Assembly: GCA_002172485.2 (NCBI GenBank)
Contig: NHFP02000005.1
Span: 4,402-68,401, forward strand
DNA from: Crocinitomicaceae bacterium TMED114
GTDB lineage: Bacteria > Bacteroidota > Bacteroidia > Flavobacteriales_D > Sanyastnellaceae
Length of the DNA stretch: 64,000 nt
Direction: 5' to 3'
Part shown: in pieces, positions 3,357 to 40,449 of the stretch
Position numbering within the stretch: position 1 is the stretch's first letter
Layout of the letters: each line of letters begins with the position of its first letter
Notes under the pieces: generated by a model
The model's database searches: none
Told to the model about the DNA's origin: nothing
The model's input: only the letters and a program-made list of their open reading frames with translations
Translations under genes and position numbers: made by a program

Positions 3357-4592
3357 TCAGTCGCAGCGGTCGTGGGGCACGACCACGTCCAGGGTGACGC
3401 GAGCGCTGCTTCCACATCCATCGCAGCGACCGTCACAGCCGGCTTCGTCCACCACGTAGGTCGACCAGTGGCCTTGTGGGATGGCCGTCAAGCTGGCGGC
3501 CAGCGTGAAGCTGTGGGTGCCGATGGTGTGCGGCGTGCCCGACGTGAAATGGACGGTCATGCTGCCATACCCGCCTGAGAAGGTCAAGTTGACAGCGCCG
3601 TCCGCCACGGCCGGTCCTGTGGCTGCGCTGCTCAGGGCAATGCCCGTGTAGGTCAGGGGTGCGTCCAGTTCGTCGCAGGCGTAGGCACAGGGCTCAGCTG
3701 GCGTCAAGGCGTAATTCAGCGCGGCCAGATCATCGCAGTTGTCGCTGTTGTCGGCCACGTAGCCGGCGGGCTGGGTGCAGCTGGATTGGCTGTCGGAGGC
3801 GTCGCCCAAACCGTCTCCATCGGCATCCGCATACCACGTTGTGGCGTAAGTGCAGGACCCGTCGTCGCTGTTGGCAGCCGCATCGTAGTTGCAGGCGCTG
3901 TTGTCGATGCAGCCGGGGACAGAGGCTGCGCTGGCCGCGGTCACACAACGGAGAGCCACGCCGTTCTTTTTGAATTGGCTGTTGACCAAAATGTTGACGT
4001 CGTCATTCTTGAGTCGGACTTGCATGGAGCGCTGGTTGTTCCCACTGTCGACCGTCGAGGAAGCAAACCAACCCAGTATGCCTACACCGCTTGCGCCGCC
4101 CCCGTCCAAATTTCGGCCGTGGGGCAGAGCGTAGAATCCATCGGTGCCAGAAAGGCCAGGGCCGGCAGATCCGCCCCAAACGTTGCCGTCGGCTTTGAGT
4201 TGTTGCCCGGCATTGTCTCCGAGAAAGGTTGAGAGTTCATTCCAGTCATCTGCGCTGGGGACATTCCACCCCGTGGGGCAAACGGCGGTCTGAACCGCGG
4301 CGAAGTTGTACATCACCCCGTAGGTGCTGTAGTTGGCGTGGGCCATTGCGTCACTCAGGTTGGTCCCGGTGTAGCCTTGTACATAATAACGCGGACTGTT
4401 GGTACTGTGGTTGTTGTTGACCTGTGGCAGGTACCGTGAGTTCTCCGCGTACCAGCATTGGTCGCCAATTTGAACTACATCGTACGTGTGTCCCCCGAAG
4501 GTGGGGGAGGTGCAGGGCTGGGCTGCTACGTTGAAAGGCAACAGCGTGAACCACAAAAAGAGGAGGGGTGCAAGGCGCGGGATAGGATGCAT
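3357..4592 (-). CDS. Secreted FISUMP-domain protein with Cys-rich and shared C-terminal domain
   Basis: The 411-residue product starts with a signal peptide (residues 1-24, ending NVAAQ). Residues 27-217 match the Fibrobacter succinogenes major paralogous (FISUMP) domain: TFGGHTYDVVQIGDQCWYAEN, GVMYNFAAVQ, CPTGWNVPSADDWNELSTFL, and a closing GVALRCV. Residues 227-249 are the Cys-rich GCIDNSACNYDAAANSDDGS unit. Residues 250-287 are a WYADADGDGLGD-type Asp-rich repeat. Residues 290-411 form a domain also found at the C-terminus of the neighbouring SdrD-repeat protein. There is no classical T9SS tail. The start at 4592 is set by the signal peptide; the open frame continues 64 codons upstream without plausible coding sequence. 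Function unknown; a surface protein by inference. Confidence 0.85.
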   Translation of the reverse strand: MHPIPRLAPLLFLWFTLLPFNVAAQPCTSPTFGGHTYDVVQIGDQCWYAENSRYLPQVNNNHSTNSPRYYVQGYTGTNLSDAMAHANYSTYGVMYNFAAVQTAVCPTGWNVPSADDWNELSTFLGDNAGQQLKADGNVWGGSAGPGLSGTDGFYALPHGRNLDGGGASGVGILGWFASSTVDSGNNQRSMQVRLKNDDVNILVNSQFKKNGVALRCVTAASAASVPGCIDNSACNYDAAANSDDGSCTYATTWYADADGDGLGDASDSQSSCTQPAGYVADNSDNCDDLAALNYALTPAEPCAYACDELDAPLTYTGIALSSAATGPAVADGAVNLTFSGGYGSMTVHFTSGTPHTIGTHSFTLAASLTAIPQGHWSTYVVDEAGCDGRCDGCGSSARVTLDVVVPHDRCD

Positions 4593-4711
4593 GTCTAACG
4601 AACTTCGACGAAACCCCCGAAAAGTACGACTCAACCGCGAATAAACAACATTAAAACCATATATTTCTCTTTGGGTAACTTGATTTGGTCGACGAATGAG
4701 GGTGGTTGACA

Positions 4712-4744
4712 CAAAAAAGCCCCGCTTGGCGGCGGGGCTTTTCT
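4712..4744 (-). terminator. Intrinsic terminator after the SdrD-repeat gene
   Basis: Read on the minus strand, GCCCCGC and GCGGGGC form a perfect 7-bp GC stem around a short loop, followed by TTTTTT. It lies about 20 bases past the stop codon at 4765. The plus strand also has a T run, so it may work in both directions. Confidence 0.85.
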
Positions 4745-4764
4745 GAGTTGAAAGGAGGTTGGGT

Positions 4765-7587
4765 TCACTCGGGGACCTCGTCACAATGCTCGTAGGTCAC
4801 GAACAGGGTGAGGACCACGGGGGATCCGGTGGATTCCTCTTCCGTTGTGATCATCGGAGCGTCCGCGGTGCAGCCGTTGCGGTCTTGCAGGGTCACGGCC
4901 CAGGCGCCTGCCGGGACCATGTCGAGTTCAGTGTCCACGTCGAGCTCGACGCTGGCCGCTTCCTCAAACATGTCGGTCAGCACCAGGGTGTAGGGGCCTT
5001 TGGAGCCGCTATACACGATGCTCACTTCTCCATCTGCGGCATCCGGACCGGAGGGATAGGAGAGGAGTTCAATGCTTTCAAACACAAGCGGGTCTGAGAT
5101 TTCGCCACAGGTGTAGACGCAGGATTCCGTCGGGACGAAGTCGTAATTGAATGCCGTCTCGTCCGAACAATCGTCGTTGCAGTCCTCGATGCCATCTCCG
5201 TCGCTATCCGTGTCGGCGACATTACAGCCACAAACTCCGGGGTCGGTCTTGTTGGGGTCGACAGGACATGGTTCGTCACAGTTCGGTGTGCCATCGTTGT
5301 CGCTGTCCGTATCGTCCTGCCAGACACCGCAGTCCACGGTGGTGAGGTTCTGCGAACCGGACGTCATGAAGATGGTGTCCGTGTAGAGGGTCGTCTGGTC
5401 GAAATCGCTGTCTTGCGATTCGCCAACACCGCTCTTGTCCTTGAAGGTCAGCCCGCAGTTGTTGCCGCTGAGAATGACTTGAATGCGGACGCCTTGGTCG
5501 GCGGGCACATTCGGGAAGATCACTTCGCCCATGACGTCTGACGTCTGGGTGGAGATGACCGATCCGTTGAGGCGACGGAGCTTGGCCGTGATGCCTTGGA
5601 TGGAGACTTCATTGCCATTTTGCTTTCCGTTGCCGTTGGCATCCAGCCAGAAGCGGGTCGTGATGGTGCCCGGAGCGAAGAGGCCGGCATCCTGATCGGT
5701 GATCAGATGGGCGCCCTTCGTGGTGGCGAAGAAATCGGTGTAGCCGTTGTTGTTCGGATCGGCGTCACTGTCGTTGTTCTCATGGCTGTTGGCCGCATTG
5801 CTCTCCGTCAGCGCGTAGCCGTTCGGGGCAATGAATTGCATGCGGACGTTCTGTCCGGCGGGCACATTGTCTTGGAACTCCACGAGGCCATCTGCACCCG
5901 TCGTCAAGGTTTGGATGACGGAGTTGTTGCTTCGGCGCAGCTTGACCTGTACCCCAGCGATGCCCACCTCATTTCCATTGCGCTTGCCGTCTCCATTGAC
6001 ATCGTCCCAAGCGAGGGCGGTCACCGATCCGGGTGACCACTGGCCGCAGTCGATGTTGTTTTGGACATCGGCACCGCGGTCGGCCTCGAAGGTGGCCGTC
6101 AGACCGTTGTTGTCGCCATCGGCGTCGCTGTCGTTGGATTCGCTGGTGTTGGCGGCATTCAAGTGCGTGTAGGCGTGGTTGCTGTTCTTCAAGGCGAAGC
6201 TCAGCTTGTACGGCTCGTCCGCCGGGACATTGCCGGAGAAGGTGGCGATGCCATCCGGGCCGGTGCTCACCGTCTGAATGACGGAGTTGTTGGCCCGGTG
6301 CAGCTTGACTTGCACGCCTTCGATGCCCGTCTCGTTGCCGTTCTTCTTTCCATCGCCATTGATGTCATCCCAAACCAAGGCGTTCACCGTGCCGGGGGAC
6401 CACTGACCGCAGTCCTGGTTGGTGATGAGGTGCGCGCCTTGGGTGGTGCGGAAGGTGCCTGTGAAGCCGTTGTTGTCACCATCGGCATCGCTGTCGTTGT
6501 TTTCATTGGTGTTGACCGCATTCACATGGGTGTAAGCGTGGTCGTTGTTCTTGCGGGCAAAGGAGAGCTTCACGTCCTGATCGGCTGGAACCAATCCGGT
6601 GAAGATGGCGTGTCCGGTGGCATCGGTATTGGCCGTGGAGATCACAGAGCCATTGCTGCGGCGCAGCTTGACTTGTACGCCTTCAATGCCGGACTCGTTG
6701 CCGTTTTGCTTGCCGTCACCGTTGATGTCATCCCACACATAGGCGTCCACACTGCCCGGGGACCACTGTCCGCAGTCGTACATCGTGGTGGATGCACCCG
6801 GCGTGAAGATCTCGGTCTCTCCGCTGTTGCGATCCGCGTCGCTGTCCTGGCTCTCATTGACCCCCACTGCATTGGCGATGGTGAAGGCGTGGTTGTTGTT
6901 CTTCTTTTCGAAGTCCAGTTTGACGTCTTGTTCTACATTCAGGAAGGTCGCGATGCCGTTCTCGTCCGTGGTGGTGGACATGAGCTGGGATCCATTGGCC
7001 CGGCGCAGGCGCACCGTGACACCTTCAATGCCGGACTCGTTGCCATTTTGTTTGCCATTGCCATTGATGTCATCCCAGACGTAACACTGGATCACCGTCG
7101 TGGCGCAAGAGATGTACTCGCAACTGCCATCGTCGGTCTGCGCATCTGCGTCATAGTTGCAGGCTTCGGAATCCGTGCAGCCCGTGACCGCCAATGTGGT
7201 CAGCGTGGCCGTTTCTCCGTCGTGGGTCATGCTGATGGCGGACATGTCCCCATTGAATTCGAGCACCTGCGCATTGCAGGATCCTTGGGCCGAAGACAGG
7301 AGACACTGCGCTCCCGAGGCGGCGATGCTGTATTCATAGGTAGCAAGCACCGTTCCTTCCTCGTCCAGCTCGTTGATGAATCCATCCGTGCCGAAGTCGA
7401 GGGTGGTGGAGATTTCGATGCAAGACTCCCCAAATGCGGCTTCGTAGCTCAGCGTCACATGGGCTGGAGTGAGGTAGTCGCTGATGGCGTCACAGGGGTC
7501 CGTGACAGGGAGGGAAGAAGAGGCGGTCAGGGTGTTACCGAAAGCCACGAGGGTACAGACGGTAAGGGTGCAGACAATGGTGCGCAT
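4765..7587 (-). CDS. Large surface protein with five SdrD B-type repeats and a thrombospondin-3-like Asp-rich segment
   Basis: The 940-residue product begins with a signal-peptide-like stretch (RTIVCTLTVCTLVAFGNTL). Residues 136-158 hold a GCTDSEACNYDADAQTDDGS Cys-rich unit. Residues 167-758 are five tandem repeats of about 118 residues, each opening with a variant of VWDDINGDGKQNGNESGIEG and ending near DCGQWSPG. This is the SdrD B-like (prealbumin-type) fold of bacterial adhesins, with Ca2+-binding Asp/Asn loops. Residues 760-806 (DSDNDGTPNCDEPC, DTDSDGDGIEDCNDDC) resemble thrombospondin type 3 repeats. Residues 811-940 are homologous to the C-terminus of the downstream FISUMP protein. I chose ATG 7587 because of the signal peptide; an ATG at 7650 is in frame. 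A role as stalk or adhesin is inference. Confidence 0.85.
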   Translation of the reverse strand: MRTIVCTLTVCTLVAFGNTLTASSSLPVTDPCDAISDYLTPAHVTLSYEAAFGESCIEISTTLDFGTDGFINELDEEGTVLATYEYSIAASGAQCLLSSAQGSCNAQVLEFNGDMSAISMTHDGETATLTTLAVTGCTDSEACNYDADAQTDDGSCEYISCATTVIQCYVWDDINGNGKQNGNESGIEGVTVRLRRANGSQLMSTTTDENGIATFLNVEQDVKLDFEKKNNNHAFTIANAVGVNESQDSDADRNSGETEIFTPGASTTMYDCGQWSPGSVDAYVWDDINGDGKQNGNESGIEGVQVKLRRSNGSVISTANTDATGHAIFTGLVPADQDVKLSFARKNNDHAYTHVNAVNTNENNDSDADGDNNGFTGTFRTTQGAHLITNQDCGQWSPGTVNALVWDDINGDGKKNGNETGIEGVQVKLHRANNSVIQTVSTGPDGIATFSGNVPADEPYKLSFALKNSNHAYTHLNAANTSESNDSDADGDNNGLTATFEADRGADVQNNIDCGQWSPGSVTALAWDDVNGDGKRNGNEVGIAGVQVKLRRSNNSVIQTLTTGADGLVEFQDNVPAGQNVRMQFIAPNGYALTESNAANSHENNDSDADPNNNGYTDFFATTKGAHLITDQDAGLFAPGTITTRFWLDANGNGKQNGNEVSIQGITAKLRRLNGSVISTQTSDVMGEVIFPNVPADQGVRIQVILSGNNCGLTFKDKSGVGESQDSDFDQTTLYTDTIFMTSGSQNLTTVDCGVWQDDTDSDNDGTPNCDEPCPVDPNKTDPGVCGCNVADTDSDGDGIEDCNDDCSDETAFNYDFVPTESCVYTCGEISDPLVFESIELLSYPSGPDAADGEVSIVYSGSKGPYTLVLTDMFEEAASVELDVDTELDMVPAGAWAVTLQDRNGCTADAPMITTEEESTGSPVVLTLFVTYEHCDEVPE
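5314..7089 (-). repeat. Five tandem ~355-bp coding repeats (SdrD B-like)
   Basis: Five in-frame copies encode units of 113-120 residues. Repeats 2-4 are the most alike and share GDGK(Q/K/R)NGNE, GVQVKL(R/H)R and NNDSDAD blocks. The first and last copies are more diverged. Such arrays often gain or lose copies by recombination. Confidence 0.85.
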
Positions 7588-34482: not shown

Positions 34483-34882
34483 GGGGCCGATTTTGGATTT
34501 GACAGCAAGTCTGAACGTCGCGGTCAGCATGCCGAGTGCGTAGGGTGGCTACTCGTTAATCAAGAAACCCAAGCCATAACTGGCAACACTTCCTACGCGC
34601 TCGCGGCCTAATCCTCTCGGAGGATTCGCCTAATTCTAGCCACAGATTGGCAGAACGAGCTGTCCCGTCTCGTCGTTCGGATCCTATCCGCGAGGCAATG
34701 GGGCATCAGGAGAATGGATCTAGCGAAAGGGGCGTCTTGACCCTGTAGCGAAATTTTACAAGGCTAAGTCAGAGATGGGCCGTCCACGGTCAGCCTCTGG
34801 TCGAAAATCAATCGTGGACTGAGCATGGAGAACGCTGCAGGCGTTGCTTGTTTGGACCCGGGTTCGACTCCCGGCGGCTCCA
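34483..34882 (+). ncRNA. ssrA: Transfer-messenger RNA (tmRNA)
   Basis: Rescues ribosomes stalled on broken mRNA and tags the nascent peptide for degradation. The 5' end GGGGCCGATTTTGGATTTGA has the standard tmRNA opening. The 3' end has the tRNA-like T arm (GGGTTCGACTCCC) and CGGCTCC, which pairs with the first seven bases GGGGCCG with one G-U. The discriminator A is followed by CA, so the CCA end is not fully encoded. The length of about 400 nt is in the usual range. An internal frame ends in TACGCGCTCGCGGCCTAA (YALAA-stop), the tmRNA tag hallmark. A strong terminator follows. Confidence 0.95.
34582..34611 (+). other. tmRNA proteolysis-tag reading frame (GNTSYALAA)
   Basis: Inside ssrA, GGC AAC ACT TCC TAC GCG CTC GCG GCC TAA encodes GNTSYALAA. 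The length and YALAA end match known tags; from memory, Bacteroides tags such as GETNYALAA start with Gly too. GGC as the resume codon is inferred from this similarity. Confidence 0.8.
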
Positions 34883-34896
34883 CATTTTCAGTGTGT

Positions 34897-34933
34897 AAAA
34901 AAGCCCGCTTCCTTAATGGAGGCTGGCTTTTTT
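34897..34933 (+). terminator. Intrinsic terminator of ssrA
   Basis: AAAAAAGCCCGCTTCC pairs with GGAGGCTGGCTTTTTT around TTAAT, giving a long stem with one mismatch and a T-run. It starts 15 bases after the mature tmRNA end. Confidence 0.85.
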
Positions 34934-35079
34934 GTGCCCAGAATTGCAGAAGAATTAGGGGAGGTTGCACTGGCGCCATCTGCAGCATTTCCGTCATCTT
35001 CCGAGGTGGTCAGCTCATGAATAGGGACCATGAAGGGATCACTTTGTTTCAAGAAACGGGACAGCAAAAGAGAAGTAGG

Positions 35080-35493
35080 TCAGTCAACAGCCTTGTTCCA
35101 TCCGTACAAGGCTAGACCTGCTTGGATGAACAAAAGGACACCAATGAATGGTGGCGGTCCTCCTCCCTGAAACAAATGATTGTACAAGGCGACGAGAAAC
35201 ACACACCCCAGGAATGCCGAGAAGGCTGCAAAAATTTTGCGATTGACCGAATTCTCAAGTCGAAATGATTTTAAAACAAGCAATAGAAGTCCTACACCAA
35301 TCATGTGCATGGCTGTGACGTCAATCACGCCTTGAGCAAAGAAAATGAGCTCAGCCCCCGATTCGGATTCCAAGTCGCCTTGAAAGAACGGTGCCATAAA
35401 ACCGACAGGGTCCATAAAAATGCCGAGTAGAAGTCCAATACCATTAAGGAACTGTATGACAATGAGGAGAAGGTAAATCAGTGAGGATTTCAT
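35080..35493 (-). CDS. Hypothetical four-helix integral membrane protein
   Basis: The 137-residue protein is mostly hydrophobic with four predicted membrane segments (SSLIYLLLIVIQFLNGIGLL, AMHMIGVGLLLLVLKSF, FAAFSAFLGCVFLVALY, FIGVLLFIQAGLALYGW). It lies next to an AraC-type regulator in an AT-rich region after ssrA. The layout is reminiscent of small DoxX-like or DUF4345-like membrane proteins, but I cannot assign it to a family. ATG 35493 was chosen; upstream codons lack coding character. Confidence 0.75.
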   Translation of the reverse strand: MKSSLIYLLLIVIQFLNGIGLLLGIFMDPVGFMAPFFQGDLESESGAELIFFAQGVIDVTAMHMIGVGLLLLVLKSFRLENSVNRKIFAAFSAFLGCVFLVALYNHLFQGGGPPPFIGVLLFIQAGLALYGWNKAVD

Positions 35494-35555
35494 AATTGAT
35501 TGTGTTTGCCCAGCAAAGAACAGCCAAATCGACATCAACTAATTGTACCAATTGC

Positions 35556-36395
35556 TCATTCGATCATTACAAATTCAGGTATCACGCCCTTGTGAGAATT
35601 TTGATATTCTTTTGGTGTCATTCCCGCGAAGCGCTTAAATGTGCGAGTAAAATGAGCTTGGTCATAAAATCCAAGGTCAAATGCGATTTCGGAAAGTGAC
35701 TGATTCTTATGGCTTATGGCATACATGGCATGGCGAAATCTTTTGTGCAGCTCGTATTCCCTGTAAGTCACACCGAGCCAGTCTTTGCATATTCGATTGA
35801 AATGAGACGTAGAATAGAAGATGTGGTCGAAGCTCAATTGTGTTTCATTGAAAGCTGAATGTGGGTCCGAGTAGAGCGTTTGAAGGTTGCGTATTTTTTC
35901 TAGTGCTCGATTGTACCCTCCCAATGCCGCCAGTCTTTGAAGCAAATAATTTTCGAGACATCGGGCTCGTTGTTGGAACGTCGTCAAGGTGTTCAATGAA
36001 TCCTGAATACCATTGAGATTGTCCAATGTTGTGGGTTCAAAGTGAATGTCTTTGGCTTCCCAAGCCGGAACTCCCAGAATGGCCATGGCCGCAATTGGGT
36101 TCATTACCGCAAGCATGGCATTTAGTCGTTTGAACTTGGCGTCCACAGGCTGGGTTTGACTCGAAAATGCCATAACGTATTGATCGGAGTCGTTCGGCAG
36201 GAAACCACTCTTGTCAGAATCAATGTAAAAGTGGTCGAATTCACTTCCTTCCAAAAGGAACATGATTTCCACTTTGGAGTTTGGCAACGCCCTGAAATGT
36301 GAAGGAATTTGAGATTGATGCTGAACTATGATGTCAACAAAGCCCGCCAAAGCGTGTGGAACGTAAATCGAAATCTCAGACTCGTTCTCTAACAT
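35556..36395 (-). CDS. AraC-family transcriptional regulator
   Basis: The protein (279 residues from the ATG at 36395; a TTG at 36431 would add 12) has a unique N-terminal region with DUF6597-like features (SQIPSHFRALPNSKVEIMFL) and a C-terminal AraC DNA-binding domain with two helix-turn-helix units (DHIFYSTSHFNRICKDWLGV, and SLSEIAFDLGFYDQAHFTRT then FKRFAGMTPKEYQ). The ligand is unknown. It may control the adjacent membrane protein gene 62 bases downstream. Codon use is clearly more AT-rich than in flanking genes. Confidence 0.9.
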   Translation of the reverse strand: MLENESEISIYVPHALAGFVDIIVQHQSQIPSHFRALPNSKVEIMFLLEGSEFDHFYIDSDKSGFLPNDSDQYVMAFSSQTQPVDAKFKRLNAMLAVMNPIAAMAILGVPAWEAKDIHFEPTTLDNLNGIQDSLNTLTTFQQRARCLENYLLQRLAALGGYNRALEKIRNLQTLYSDPHSAFNETQLSFDHIFYSTSHFNRICKDWLGVTYREYELHKRFRHAMYAISHKNQSLSEIAFDLGFYDQAHFTRTFKRFAGMTPKEYQNSHKGVIPEFVMIE

Positions 36396-36936
36396 GCCAG
36401 CAAAGAAAGATGTGGGTTGAAGGGGCTCCAAATTTTATGTTGCTGAGCCATGACCACTTCACTCTTTTCAAGAGCCACTTGAGTGCACCAAGGCCACCTC
36501 GATCAGGGAGGAGGTCACCAACAGTGTCCAGGATGTGAGGTGCTTTGCGCTTGATCCGGGTCCCCAGGGTTGTATTCCTGATGGGCTTCTGTGATTGATT
36601 CACAGCGCCAAGATCTCCAGGATGCGGTGCTCAGAGGGTTACATTCAGCAACAACATGAAACCTAGCTCCGGTGTTGACAAGTAAGAGGTGCGAAACGAG
36701 GTGCGAAGAATGAGGAGAGAGCTGAATACCCAGTTATTGCTGAGCATCACAAGGGGATGCTGATTGCCCCCGACTCTACTGATAATGTGACGTCTCGGAT
36801 GGCGTGCCTATGAGCTCTTGGTTCTGCCCAAATGCGACGAGAAGATTGGAACTTGAGTGTAGTTCACTAGCGCTCAATGTGATGAACAGGATTTATGATT
36901 TGTGACCTGTTCTACCGGCAAAAGGAAATGACGGGT
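36396..36936 (-). other. Intergenic stretch of about 540 bp with no supported gene
   Basis: Open frames here are short and lack family features. A 10-base direct repeat, GAGGTGCGAA, occurs twice close together near 36690-36710. I see no terminator, RNA gene or mobile-element end. It may hold the AraC promoter and decayed island sequence. Confidence 0.4.
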
Positions 36937-37119
36937 TTACTTGTCGTCGGAAGGAAACCGAGAGAAGTTTTCCATGCCATCCATGACGAGGTTGTCAGGT
37001 TCGTAATCCAACTGATTTGCATCGTCCTCTGATTTGTGGCCATTGTAAATGTTCCAAATCAAAAATGCCATGTAAACGGAAAAGATGACGAACCCCGTGA
37101 TGAACATGTATATGCTCAT
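36937..37119 (-). CDS. Tiny single-helix membrane protein (cassette copy A, second gene)
   Basis: The 60-residue protein has one membrane helix (IYMFITGFVIFSVYMAFLIW) followed by a polar acidic tail with NGHKSEDDANQ and FSRFPSD. Its ATG overlaps the stop of the preceding small gene (ATGA). A close homologue is encoded at 39608-39793. It matches no family I know; the shape recalls small accessory subunits of transporters or respiratory enzymes, but that is a guess. Confidence 0.65.
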   Translation of the reverse strand: MSIYMFITGFVIFSVYMAFLIWNIYNGHKSEDDANQLDYEPDNLVMDGMENFSRFPSDDK

Positions 37120-37301
37120 GACTGCGTGGTTCTGCGTTGCCGAATGGCGATGGAAAAGAGAAGGATGGTGCCGGCCCAATGCGCAGAGTACAAAGCTTCA
37201 TCGGTATGACCCAACAAGCCTAAGCCCACGGAGTAGAAAAGGCAAACGAAGGCAAGCAGTACTGCATACCATTGCCTCAGGAATTGAACGTAGGTCTTCA
37301 T
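37116..37301 (-). CDS. Tiny two-helix membrane protein (cassette copy A, first gene)
   Basis: The 61-residue protein has two hydrophobic segments (WYAVLLAFVCLFYSVGLGLL and YSAHWAGTILLFSIAI) joined by GHTDEA, and a basic C-terminus RQRRTTQS. The copy at 39790-39975 is almost identical after the first five residues. It is translationally coupled to the next gene by ATGA. Start at ATG 37301 rather than 37331 because similarity between the copies begins there. Function unknown. Confidence 0.7.
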   Translation of the reverse strand: MKTYVQFLRQWYAVLLAFVCLFYSVGLGLLGHTDEALYSAHWAGTILLFSIAIRQRRTTQS

Positions 37302-37436
37302 GATGGGGTGGATTGATCTGTTGTAGAACAAAGAATGAAGCGTTCTGGAGAGTAAAATGTGTTGGCACAGCAGCTTATTCCGAATGGCATTCGCTTGTTT
37401 TTTGACAGAGGATTTTTTTTCTTTGAAAAAAAAATC

Positions 37437-37718
37437 ATGCAGGATATGTTAGTTGTCGGAATGCTCAAGGAAGGGCAGTTCCAAAAGTTCATGGGTTTTA
37501 TGCAATCTGATGCGGGCATTGCCGAAAGAAAAAAGGTGGCCGACTTGAGCAAAACCATTGGCACCGTTTCGCCTGATCACAGCAAGGTCATGTTCAAGAT
37601 TGCAGTGCACGATCTGGATGCATTGCGCGCTTTTCTAGACGGTTCAAATCCAGTTTCGAAGCCCGTTTTTGATGAAGTGATGGAATCGTACGAGATCTAT
37701 GAGCTTGAACAGATTTGA
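37437..37718 (+). CDS. Small hypothetical protein, possible dimeric alpha/beta-barrel type
   Basis: The 93-residue protein (QDMLVVGMLKEGQFQKFMGF and VMFKIAVHDLDALRAFLDG) has a strand-helix-strand pattern with a C-terminal YEIYELEQI strand, as in small ferredoxin-like dimers such as DUF3764. The match is by shape only. The ATG at 37437 follows an A-rich stretch. It is flanked downstream by a bidirectional terminator. Confidence 0.55.
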   Translation: MQDMLVVGMLKEGQFQKFMGFMQSDAGIAERKKVADLSKTIGTVSPDHSKVMFKIAVHDLDALRAFLDGSNPVSKPVFDEVMESYEIYELEQI

Positions 37719-37825
37719 GTCCCCAAGGGCTCGAGTTGTGGCTCAATGATCTGTGAAGCGTTTTAGTGGCTCGAATGAGCGCTGGTTTTGGTGTTGACAA
37801 CATCAGGCTTAGCTTGGTTATGACG

Positions 37826-37854
37826 AAAAAAAAGGGGCTCAAGCCCCTTTTTTG
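37826..37854. terminator. Bidirectional intrinsic terminator
   Basis: AAAAAAAAGGGGCT and AGCCCCTTTTTT form a symmetric hairpin between two convergent genes (37437-37718 plus, 37873-38412 minus). T-runs are present on both strands. Confidence 0.85.
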
Positions 37855-37872
37855 ATTTGAATGGAATGGTGG

Positions 37873-38412
37873 TCAAAATGTCCAGCCAACGCCCACATTG
37901 GGATGGGGCCAAACGGAGAATCCGTCCGTAACATCGTCCCCATCGAATTGAATGACTTGGTCACCCATGTTCAGACCAATGCCCAAATCAACAACCAAGC
38001 CGAAGTCAAACTTGAATTGGTAGCCCGTCTCTACACCGACTCCGATACCTCGGACGACCTCACGCCAGGCACTGGTGCCCTCAGGAATTTCATTGATCGC
38101 GCCCTTGAACAGGCGAGGTCCGATGTAAAATCCTTTTGTGGCCTCTCCAAGTTTTTGAATTGGATACAACCGGTAAGACAACACTCCCAAGGTGGCATGG
38201 AGAGAGTCTCCTTCGAATGCCATTGCGCGCATGCTGATTGAGGTGCGGTCATTGAGGGAAGTTTCAAACCGGAAATCGGGGATGCCACCGCTCACCGAAA
38301 ACAGGTCAAGCGTGGCGACGTAGGACCGTTGATTTGTTTCTTCCGTCGCCTCTTGGGCTGTGCTGGAGAGGCCCAATGCGAGGACTGCTGCTGTTAGAAA
38401 TAAGTATTTCAT
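37873..38412 (-). CDS. Secreted outer-membrane beta-barrel-like protein
   Basis: The 179-residue protein has a signal peptide (KYLFLTAAVLALGLSSTAQ) and alternating strands typical of small porins, ending in VGVGWTF with a C-terminal Phe, an outer-membrane insertion signal. Phrases such as SYRLYPIQKLGEATKGFYIG and VGVETGYQFKFDFGLVVDLG resemble DUF3575-like barrels. Function unknown. It shares the fold type with the gene at 51468, but I see no close sequence match. Confidence 0.7.
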   Translation of the reverse strand: MKYLFLTAAVLALGLSSTAQEATEETNQRSYVATLDLFSVSGGIPDFRFETSLNDRTSISMRAMAFEGDSLHATLGVLSYRLYPIQKLGEATKGFYIGPRLFKGAINEIPEGTSAWREVVRGIGVGVETGYQFKFDFGLVVDLGIGLNMGDQVIQFDGDDVTDGFSVWPHPNVGVGWTF

Positions 38413-38789
38413 GTGGAATGTTATGAATTTTCGCCCGCAAGCTCAATGCTCGCCTCAGGATTTTTGGCTTGACCCAGGGTTCTTCCTAACACCTCCTTGT
38501 GAGTCGTTGAGTTGGAATTGTACGACCAATTTCAGCCCTTAGGACGAGCGTTGGTTTCAAGCTCGCTTGGAAACAGTGACCTAGGGTCAGACAACGTCAC
38601 AGAGTCAATGCGCCCATGGATGAGGGAGTCCATGCGGCTTGTAAATCCGGAAAATGACTTTCCTGGGCGCATGCAAGACTTGCAACACTGACCGAGCTTT
38701 AGCGTGCTTGAGTCACCATTGTGTTAAGGTTCTTGAAGTTGGCCTTCCCCTGAGGCATCTGGGCCCTATCCTCGCGAAAATCTTTATCG
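38413..38789 (+). other. Intergenic stretch of about 380 bp
   Basis: Lies between divergent genes (37873-38412 minus and 38790-39494 plus). No supported open frame, RNA or hairpin was seen. It should hold the promoters of both flanking genes, but no clean TAnnTTTG was recognised. Confidence 0.4.
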
Positions 38790-39494
38790 ATGAAACACCT
38801 TTTTACACTCGGTTTCTTGGCCTTCATTGGCCTGACCCTCAACGCCCAGACTTGGGTCAACTTCGACTTTACAGTCCCCATGGAAAAAGCGGAGGCGTTC
38901 AACACCAACTGGGAAGAATTCATGAACTCGGAGACAGGCAAAGCGCTTCCAATGTGCTTCATGAGCCAGCATGAAATGGGCGCAGCGACGCACAACACCT
39001 CCATTTCGTTTGTCTCGGACGATGTCAATGACATGGCGCCACTTTTCGATTATCAGGCCATTTTCCAGAATCCAGACTGGATGAAAATGTGGGCATGGTT
39101 CGGCATGAATGTCGAGCCCGCTCGCCAACAAACCGGCGTTCGCTTGATGGGTTCGACTGCGAAAGAAGGGAACTACTACCAAGCATTCTGGGGCATTGAA
39201 GTTGCAGATCCAATGACCACGGCAGCGGCTTTTGAGCAACTCATCAAAGACAGCCAAGCCGACCTGGACAAGTACAATGTCGAAATCGCTTTGCATCAGG
39301 CGATGGCAGGTCAAGAGGGTGCGATTTCTCACTACATCTCGGCCGATTTCAAGGATTACGTGACCTTCATGACTGCGTCACAGGCCATGTACCAGTCGGA
39401 AGGCTTTGGGAAATTTGCGCAAGCCACTGCGGCAAACAGCAACCCCTTAACATGGACCCGCACGGTCATGGGAGCCTACAACACCGGCGAATAA
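38790..39494 (+). CDS. Secreted hypothetical protein with two ferredoxin-like halves
   Basis: The 234-residue protein has a signal peptide (KHLFTLGFLAFIGLTLNAQ). The mature part has two parts of about 100 residues, one opening TWVNFDFTVPMEKAEAFNTN and the other EGAISHYISADFKDYVTFMT, which recall dimeric alpha/beta-barrel folds. Met and Trp are frequent. I do not recognise the family. A strong terminator follows 26 bases after the stop. It lies between the two cassette copies in the AT-rich region. Confidence 0.7.
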   Translation: MKHLFTLGFLAFIGLTLNAQTWVNFDFTVPMEKAEAFNTNWEEFMNSETGKALPMCFMSQHEMGAATHNTSISFVSDDVNDMAPLFDYQAIFQNPDWMKMWAWFGMNVEPARQQTGVRLMGSTAKEGNYYQAFWGIEVADPMTTAAAFEQLIKDSQADLDKYNVEIALHQAMAGQEGAISHYISADFKDYVTFMTASQAMYQSEGFGKFAQATAANSNPLTWTRTVMGAYNTGE

Positions 39495-39520
39495 TTCAAA
39501 CAAGCATTTGCTCGTCACAA

Positions 39521-39548
39521 AAGCCCGGCCAAAAGCCGGGCTTTTTTT
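39521..39548 (+). terminator. Intrinsic terminator after 38790-39494
   Basis: AGCCCGGC and GCCGGGCT form an 8-bp stem around CAAAA, followed by TTTTTT. Confidence 0.88.
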
Positions 39549-39607
39549 CTGCTTCGATGAATGCTGCTGGAAGCCCGGCCCGAACGGGGAAAGGACAGGG
39601 CAATGGA

Positions 39608-39793
39608 TTATTTTGTGCTGTCGGAAGGAAACCGAGAAAAATTTCCCATACCATCTGCGTCGAGGTTGTCGGGTTCGTGATCCAAATGATTTGGGGCGTC
39701 GTCCGATTTGTGGCCATTCAAAATATTCCAAATCAAAAATGTCATGTAAATGGAGAAGATGACGAACCCTGTGATGAACATGGATGTGCTCAT
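39608..39793 (-). CDS. Tiny single-helix membrane protein (cassette copy B, second gene)
   Basis: The 61-residue protein has the helix MFITGFVIFSIYMTFLIWNI and a polar tail (NGHKSDDAPNHLD, FSRFPSD). It is the paralogue of the product at 36937-37119, with substitutions spread mainly through the tail. Coupled to the preceding gene by ATGA. Function unknown. Confidence 0.65.
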   Translation of the reverse strand: MSTSMFITGFVIFSIYMTFLIWNILNGHKSDDAPNHLDHEPDNLDADGMGNFSRFPSDSTK

Positions 39794-39975
39794 GACTGCG
39801 TGGTTCTGCGTTGCCGAATGGCGATGGAGAAAAGGAGGATTGTACCCGCCCAATGCGCCGAGTACAAAGCTTCATCGGTATGACCCAACAAGCCTAAGCC
39901 CACCGAGTAAAAGAGGCAAACGAAGGCAAGCAGGACTGCATACCATTGCCTCAGAAATTGAACGACGGTTATCAT
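39790..39975 (-). CDS. Tiny two-helix membrane protein (cassette copy B, first gene)
   Basis: The 61-residue protein is identical to its copy-A counterpart from VQFLRQWYAVLLAF to the end, differing only in the first few residues (MITV versus MKTY). Such conservation, beside greater change in the partner gene, suggests constraint or recent conversion. Two membrane helices, basic C-terminus. Function unknown. Confidence 0.7.
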   Translation of the reverse strand: MITVVQFLRQWYAVLLAFVCLFYSVGLGLLGHTDEALYSAHWAGTILLFSIAIRQRRTTQS

Positions 39976-40068
39976 GATGGGGTCAGTTGAACTGTGAATA
40001 AACAAAGAATCAAGCGTGCCGAACAGGAAATTGTTTTGGCCTAGCTGCGAATTCCGAAAGACAGGGTC

Positions 40069-40290
40069 CTATTTGTGGGGATTGGAACTCCGTTTCTTTG
40101 AAACCCAACCTTGCGCCTGCCCCCATTGGACCATTCGGCGAACCAGAAATTCCTGTCCCAAGGACATGCAAAGCGAGATGCTCAGAATCCCGGGCCATGC
40201 CATGTCCCCGTCAAAAAGAACGGTGTACGAGTACCAGAATCCGGTGAAGACCAGAAATCCCACCACCAGACGAATGCTGTTTTGTTTCAT
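40069..40290 (-). CDS. Small membrane protein upstream of cassette copy B
   Basis: The 73-residue protein has two hydrophobic segments (IRLVVGFLVFTGFWYSYTVL and GILSISLCMSLGQEFL) and a basic end (KKRSSNPHK). It is 93 bases upstream of cassette copy B on the same strand and may be co-transcribed. No counterpart lies beside copy A. No family recognised. ATG 40290 fits better than the upstream 40302. Confidence 0.55.
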   Translation of the reverse strand: MKQNSIRLVVGFLVFTGFWYSYTVLFDGDMAWPGILSISLCMSLGQEFLVRRMVQWGQAQGWVSKKRSSNPHK

Positions 40291-40449
40291 GCTAGGCTCC
40301 ATGCACGGAGAATAGTGAGGCGTGCGAGATTCTGCAACGGGTGGGTTTGGGGTGATTTGGACCTCGACGAAACGCAGAGTTTGTGTTGGCTTAACACATA
40401 GAAATTATAGGGGTGTCCTGCAGGAAAAGGGAGTGGCGTTCCTTACGCG

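Follow-up and report, generated by a model that had tools for sequence, protein, structure and literature searches.

SdrD_B stalks, FISUMP domains and SprB-like repeats are typical parts of surface proteins. In genomes that carry the type IX secretion system (T9SS), such proteins can be compared with three types of C-terminal sorting domain. The type A domain is an Ig-like sandwich in published structures, and a type C (ChiA-type) domain has also been described, both in PMC10202324. The locus discussed here lies in a 64,000-nucleotide stretch of contig NHFP02000005.1 (hereafter, the window) and encodes two neighbouring proteins, one with a FISUMP domain and one with SdrD_B repeats, whose C-terminal ends resemble each other.

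The two genes and their shared C-terminal end

The window comes from an assembly of 1.73 Mb that is 67.6% complete. Both genes, and the features within them given below, are on the minus strand, flanked by a TatA-like gene (PF02416) and secDF. The gene for the FISUMP protein (3357..4592) has its likely start at the ATG at 4592, in an ORF that is open to 4784. The FISUMP (Fib_succ_major) domain spans 3942..4475, or residues 104-281 of the 475-aa ORF, and passes the PF09603 cut-off with 78.3 bits vs 33.9. It is followed by the first copy of the shared domain (128 aa, 3360..3743), which is made up of a degenerate Cys/Asn repeat and an SprB-like core without a second repeat. The neighbouring gene (4765..7587; likely start ATG 7587, ORF open to 7650) encodes the SdrD-repeat protein, and the second copy of the domain (136 aa, 4768..5175) forms its end. 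At its other end, this protein has an N-terminal domain of about 105 residues (7183..7527) that also occurs in six other fetched ORFs with the C-terminal module (BLASTP E 4.9e-25 to 1.1e-12) and that is not covered by the best stretch of any Pfam or NCBIfam family listed at E<=1. The SdrD-repeat protein is thus one of a family whose members are alike at both ends and differ in the middle, which here consists of five SdrD_B repeats (5280..7083, an approximate range with the lower limit set by eye) in copies 342-363 nt apart. These five stretches pass the PF17210 cut-off with 264 bits vs 29.7. A regulatory scan found promoter-like and terminator-like sites in numbers not above those of shuffled sequences (1 vs 0.9 and 5 vs 4.9, respectively). 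By eye, a GC-rich stem followed by T's is visible at about 4738-4713, downstream of the stop of the SdrD-protein gene, and is missing from the list that the scan produced.

The last 128 aa of the FISUMP protein and the last 136 aa of the SdrD-repeat protein align from end to end with a Smith-Waterman score of 180, compared with a mean of 29.9 and a maximum of 58 in 1000 shuffles. When the repeat-like first 24 aa are removed, the ends still score 111 against a shuffle maximum of 47, and whole-protein BLASTP of one against the other gives E 1e-17. It could be argued that the likeness arose by chance or by convergence through a Cys/Asp-rich composition, as Asp/Cys-rich repeats like these occur widely across the family and yield many short matches. 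However, none of the 1000 shuffles reaches the real score, with or without the repeat-like start, and the alignment covers all 128-136 residues, which makes this explanation very improbable. Homology of the two ends, as claimed in the first-pass annotation, is confirmed. The motifs quoted there are present in the sequence, an Asp/Cys-rich stretch is seen upstream of the shared end in each, and the signal peptides proposed for both proteins look right by a hydrophobicity heuristic. What that annotation did not contain is the SprB-like core, and that the window copies are short versions of a longer module. When the whole proteins are scanned, none of the best stretches listed for Pfam and NCBIfam families at E<=1 covers the shared end, and the lists for both proteins contain no T9SS tail model.

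Other features of the window and its genus can be mentioned briefly. After a tmRNA gene at 34483-34885, which encodes the tag GNTSYALAA, the GC content is lower for about 5.5 kb (0.47-0.51 in 2-kb windows between 34 and 40 kb, vs about 0.62). This stretch has few long ORFs, including one for an AraC-type regulator at 35556-36431, and three other ORFs scanned there had no Pfam match. The region 34483-40400 looks like an island beside the tmRNA gene. Within it, two pairs of similar short predicted ORFs (71 aa; 80 and 81 aa) at 36937-37331 and 39608-40005, about 2.67 kb apart, point by eye to a duplicated segment. A diversity-generating retroelement acting on FISUMP was also considered. RVT_1 occurs in 6 of the 17 genus genomes, the window's own (67.6% complete) not among them; by-eye comparison placed no copy of the domain on any of the six RVT_1 contigs.

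Range, anatomy and predicted fold of the module

Used as a query, the SdrD copy has matches in 68 of 150 genomes (its own included), most of them weak. A profile of 18 rows (A1; 16 relatives plus the window pair) identifies 35 copies in 14 of the 17 genomes of one uncultured Flavobacteriales genus, counted after removal of L010, which is the window's own FISUMP gene fetched twice. Of these copies, 32 cover the core and three are partial (one in L153, L159, and L160). In 97 further genomes of the family, the best A1 match has an E value of 4.2e-11 and covers part of the profile only; as the family search scored 28 candidates per genome, absence outside the genus is tentative. A single-protein search of genome_contigs gave no match, a search with sub-alignment A2 reached at least 23 named loci, and a search of viral_contigs gave no match. 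The strong named relatives, among the matches listed, are uncultured Flavobacteriales assemblies, and we read the genus as marine from the assembly titles. One partial alignment match (L182) is on a contig titled Gammaproteobacteria (MED690) that may be a misbinned Flavobacteriales contig.

The module opens with a Cys/Asp-rich repeat, which leads into a core predicted to be a beta-sandwich; most relatives then have another Cys/Asp repeat. In the A1 alignment, the first repeat has the consensus D.D.DG.CD..D.C.D..A.NY.DPAN..C and the core APvF.gI...(DG.v.L....G)...tL.LtG.NG..d....lP....ipaG.Y.a.V.DaeGC. The stretch between the core and the second repeat reads GGttfGQp.v...lI..Y..CC.GCG, and the second repeat itself D.DTDGICDd.DNC.DrtA.N..DPAN.PC. 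This second repeat is missing from both window copies, whose chains stop just past the Y..C position. In an alignment of 11 rows, the Cys columns flanking the core do not vary. Repeats resembling those that flank the domain also occur in a 3716-residue open frame at L177 (CALLLH010000036.1), and an equally long frame in G006:C36 (3716 residues) has at least 18 profile matches, so that the flanking repeats also build long internal arrays.

The core appears to be a diverged relative of the SprB repeat with a predicted Ig/FN3-type beta-sandwich. Aligned with hhalign, the core matches SprB repeats at 97% over 65 columns, a value biased in favour of the match since the nine SprB repeats compared came from loci matching the domain itself, two of them checked against Pfam. 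When the copies are scanned alone, window copy 2 has 14.3 bits with Pfam SprB (PF13573), vs a cut-off of 28, and copy 1 has no match. Against type A tails, the core gives 68% over 19 columns, which is background for such sandwiches, as SprB repeats themselves give 66% over 32 columns; against type B tails the value is 1%. Intermediates are known from four loci of other genera (L161, L163, L164, and L188), whose proteins have a GCTD repeat, one or more SprB-like repeats and, judged by eye, a tail resembling type A. AlphaFold predicts a sandwich of six to eight strands, with mean pLDDT values of 78 for the window copy and 75 for a relative (L166), and the ten-residue core blocks of the best models average about 82-95. 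Of five models made for the window copy, two are poor (mean pLDDT 53 and 42). The closest solved chains are mostly FN3 domains, the best having a Z score of 5.4 over 80 residues at an rmsd of 2.8. Values of Z below 8 can result from a common sandwich alone, and the score is too low for any claim beyond the fold class. With Foldseek, there was no match at E<=0.001 (best E 0.017). Galactose oxidases make up 14 of the 15 PDB sequences that profile A5 matched at E<=1 (best E 0.0013), and the result was set aside as a generic sandwich match.

Position in the protein, secretion context and probable function

The position of the domain is known for 34 of the 35 copies, of which 25 are terminal and 9 internal. 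The terminal group comprises 23 relatives with 0-3 residues past the profile end plus the window pair, and L090, cut by a contig end, is counted in neither group. Leaving out the partial copies, which are terminal in L153 and internal in L159 and L160, gives 24 terminal, 7 internal (7/31) and 1 cut. A FISUMP domain comes after the module in seven of the nine internal copies (L091, L092, L097, L155, L159, L160, and L080, the last in a 1106-residue frame). Two of these reach a contig end (L092 and L160), two are partial (L159 and L160), and in the L091 frame the FISUMP similarity seems to be lost near its end. In the remaining two internal copies, other sequence comes after the module, 232 residues long in one, with a weak DUF4394 match, and 571 residues long in the other. 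The cleanest counter-example to a terminal rule is L155, which consists of a likely signal peptide, the domain, FISUMP and a stop. FISUMP is thus found in 8 of 35 tails, namely the seven internal cases and the window's own protein, in which the order is the opposite, with FISUMP before the module. Hits are therefore not always C-terminal, which the first-pass annotation had proposed as a check.

In a tree of the 32 fuller copies, the terminal and internal ones are intermingled. Three changes are needed to account for the four rows with FISUMP after the module and two for the three rows labelled mid, with at least two changes for each forced by well-supported branches; the mid label includes the longer L080 protein, though FISUMP comes after its module. 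These repeated changes, together with the internal copies, are not the behaviour expected of an obligate C-terminal signal. Both window modules group together (100/98) on long branches, which make their sister grouping less sure than this support suggests. The grouping would fit a duplication from neighbour to neighbour followed by divergence.

All 35 protein ends, each of at most 350 residues, were scanned against NCBIfam at E<=1. At this threshold, no end matches type A (TIGR04183; 0/35) or type B (TIGR04131; 0/35), in agreement with the absence of such tails noted earlier for the window pair. The ends of 32 of the 35 are fully readable, and L090, L092, and L160 run off their contigs. With five tail-bearing proteins added as controls, type A is matched four times and type B once, so the scan works. 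No type C (ChiA) name appears among the hits, the presence of its model in the library being uncertain. In the window's own genome, 31 tails pass the type A cut-off and 13 the type B cut-off, and its SprB repeats lie within a protein that has a distinct type B tail. SprA is found in 15 of the 17 genus genomes. It was not found in the window's own genome or in G013, likely owing to incomplete assembly, since both are less than 70% complete and the 15 others have it. The PorP/SprF family, with whose genes type B domains are usually clustered, is present in 17/17 genus genomes, and no copy of the domain (0/35) shares a contig with any of the 112 listed matches, a weak result because many contigs are short. 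By the hydrophobicity heuristic, 18 of the 22 ORFs with an upstream stop inside the fetched stretch score at least 2.0 for a signal peptide (L084 being doubtful among the 18), and L148, L097, L153, and L160 fall below. These results point to large, probably secreted proteins without a type A or B tail in a T9SS-bearing genus.

The suggestion of a new anchoring or sorting domain holds in that the end is shared, is matched by no type A or B model and is terminal in most copies, but the sorting role itself is not supported, given the internal copies, the interleaved tree and the SprB-like core. Of the two outcomes named in advance as counting against it, a position in mid-protein was found in 9 of 34 copies and a match to type A or B in 0 of 35 ends. 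A new obligate sorting domain is unlikely. We also consider it unlikely that the shared end represents a new class of T9SS tail for sorting or anchoring, confined to one genus and replacing types A, B and C; in that case, following Sec export, the translocon or a shuttle would have to read an SprB-like sandwich. Such a tail would account for the terminal position behind several different upstream architectures and for the lack of type A or B matches, which is what would be expected had the module replaced such a tail; the SprA genes and the many type A and B tails of the genus fit as well, and type A tails are also Ig-like sandwiches (PMC10202324). Against this stand the internal copies, seven of them before FISUMP, above all L155, in which the likely signal peptide leads directly into the domain and FISUMP is last. 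Terminal and internal copies mix in the tree, PorP/SprF genes share no contig with the domain (a weak point, as noted), and the window copies do not have the second repeat that closes their terminal relatives. Quite unlikely, too, is a genus-specific sorting or anchoring class derived from an SprB-like repeat that provides export and retention without a type A, B or C tail, with the variants that have FISUMP behind the module relying on FISUMP or on a module read internally. Alternatively, the proteins may not be T9SS cargo at all and may be periplasmic or use another route, the terminal bias reflecting shared ancestry of a few families. The terminal copies do represent few families, judged by their upstream domains and the tree, and the FISUMP-after-module proteins also have no type A or B tail where the end is readable. 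We regard this alternative as doubtful, given that surface proteins are where SdrD_B stalks, FISUMP domains and SprB-like repeats typically occur.

The shared end is probably a genus-restricted, SprB-like modular extracytoplasmic binding domain that is often but not always C-terminal, and probably not an export signal itself. One observation against this reading is the strong terminal bias (25/34 copies). Likely signal peptides would take both proteins over the inner membrane by the Sec route. The Cys/Asp-rich repeat would bind calcium and be stapled by disulfides ahead of the Ig/FN3-type sandwich, so that the module is probably stiffened by both, judging from the families involved, and in most relatives a second repeat of this kind closes the chain. 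In this form, the binding module could serve as a compact tip or joint next to ligand-binding parts, namely the FISUMP domain in one window protein and the five-SdrD_B stalk in the other. The families involved also suggest a role in adhesion. Literature searches for a new, atypical, non-canonical or type D T9SS C-terminal domain found none, and the domain may be described elsewhere. To the surface proteins of an uncultured marine genus, the analysis adds a domain family reached over cut-off by no Pfam or NCBIfam model in these scans, and one that joins FISUMP to an SprB-like module in both domain orders.

Comparison with known systems

Of the known families at this locus, FISUMP (PF09603) and SdrD_B (PF17210) are matched over cut-off by the window proteins, but the shared C-terminal domain lies outside the stretches that either model matches. 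The flanking D.D.DG.CD..D.C stretches resemble the thrombospondin type 3 repeat (PF02412 / PF18884), from which they differ by an added A.NY.DPAN..C stretch afterwards. In six copies scanned for PF02412, L166 has 14.6 bits vs a cut-off of 25 and the other five have no match. Among 40 tails scanned, PF02412 appears in three (best E 0.027) and PF18884 in one (best E 0.004), and a literature search did not find this repeat together with type IX secretion.

Like the type A domain (TIGR04183 / PF18962), the module is a predicted sandwich with a short G.Y.v motif (19 columns) and is often C-terminal, but it differs in the failure of its ends to match the type A model and in its internal copies. With type B (TIGR04131 / PF13585) and type C (ChiA-type), it shares a C-terminal place on multi-domain secreted proteins; it differs from type B in both the tail scan and the hhalign comparison. 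The closest likeness is to the SprB repeat (PF13573). Unlike that repeat, the domain falls below the Pfam cut-off, is framed by Cys/Asp repeats and is mostly at the protein end, and none of its 35 scanned protein ends matches a type A or B tail. The two share the core motif order DG.v.l..sGg then aG.Y...V.D..GC along with the 65-column profile match, and relatives have SprB-like repeats after their GCTD repeats. The shared end, with no library model of its own in these scans, is best described as one genus's own version of a familiar type of adhesion module.
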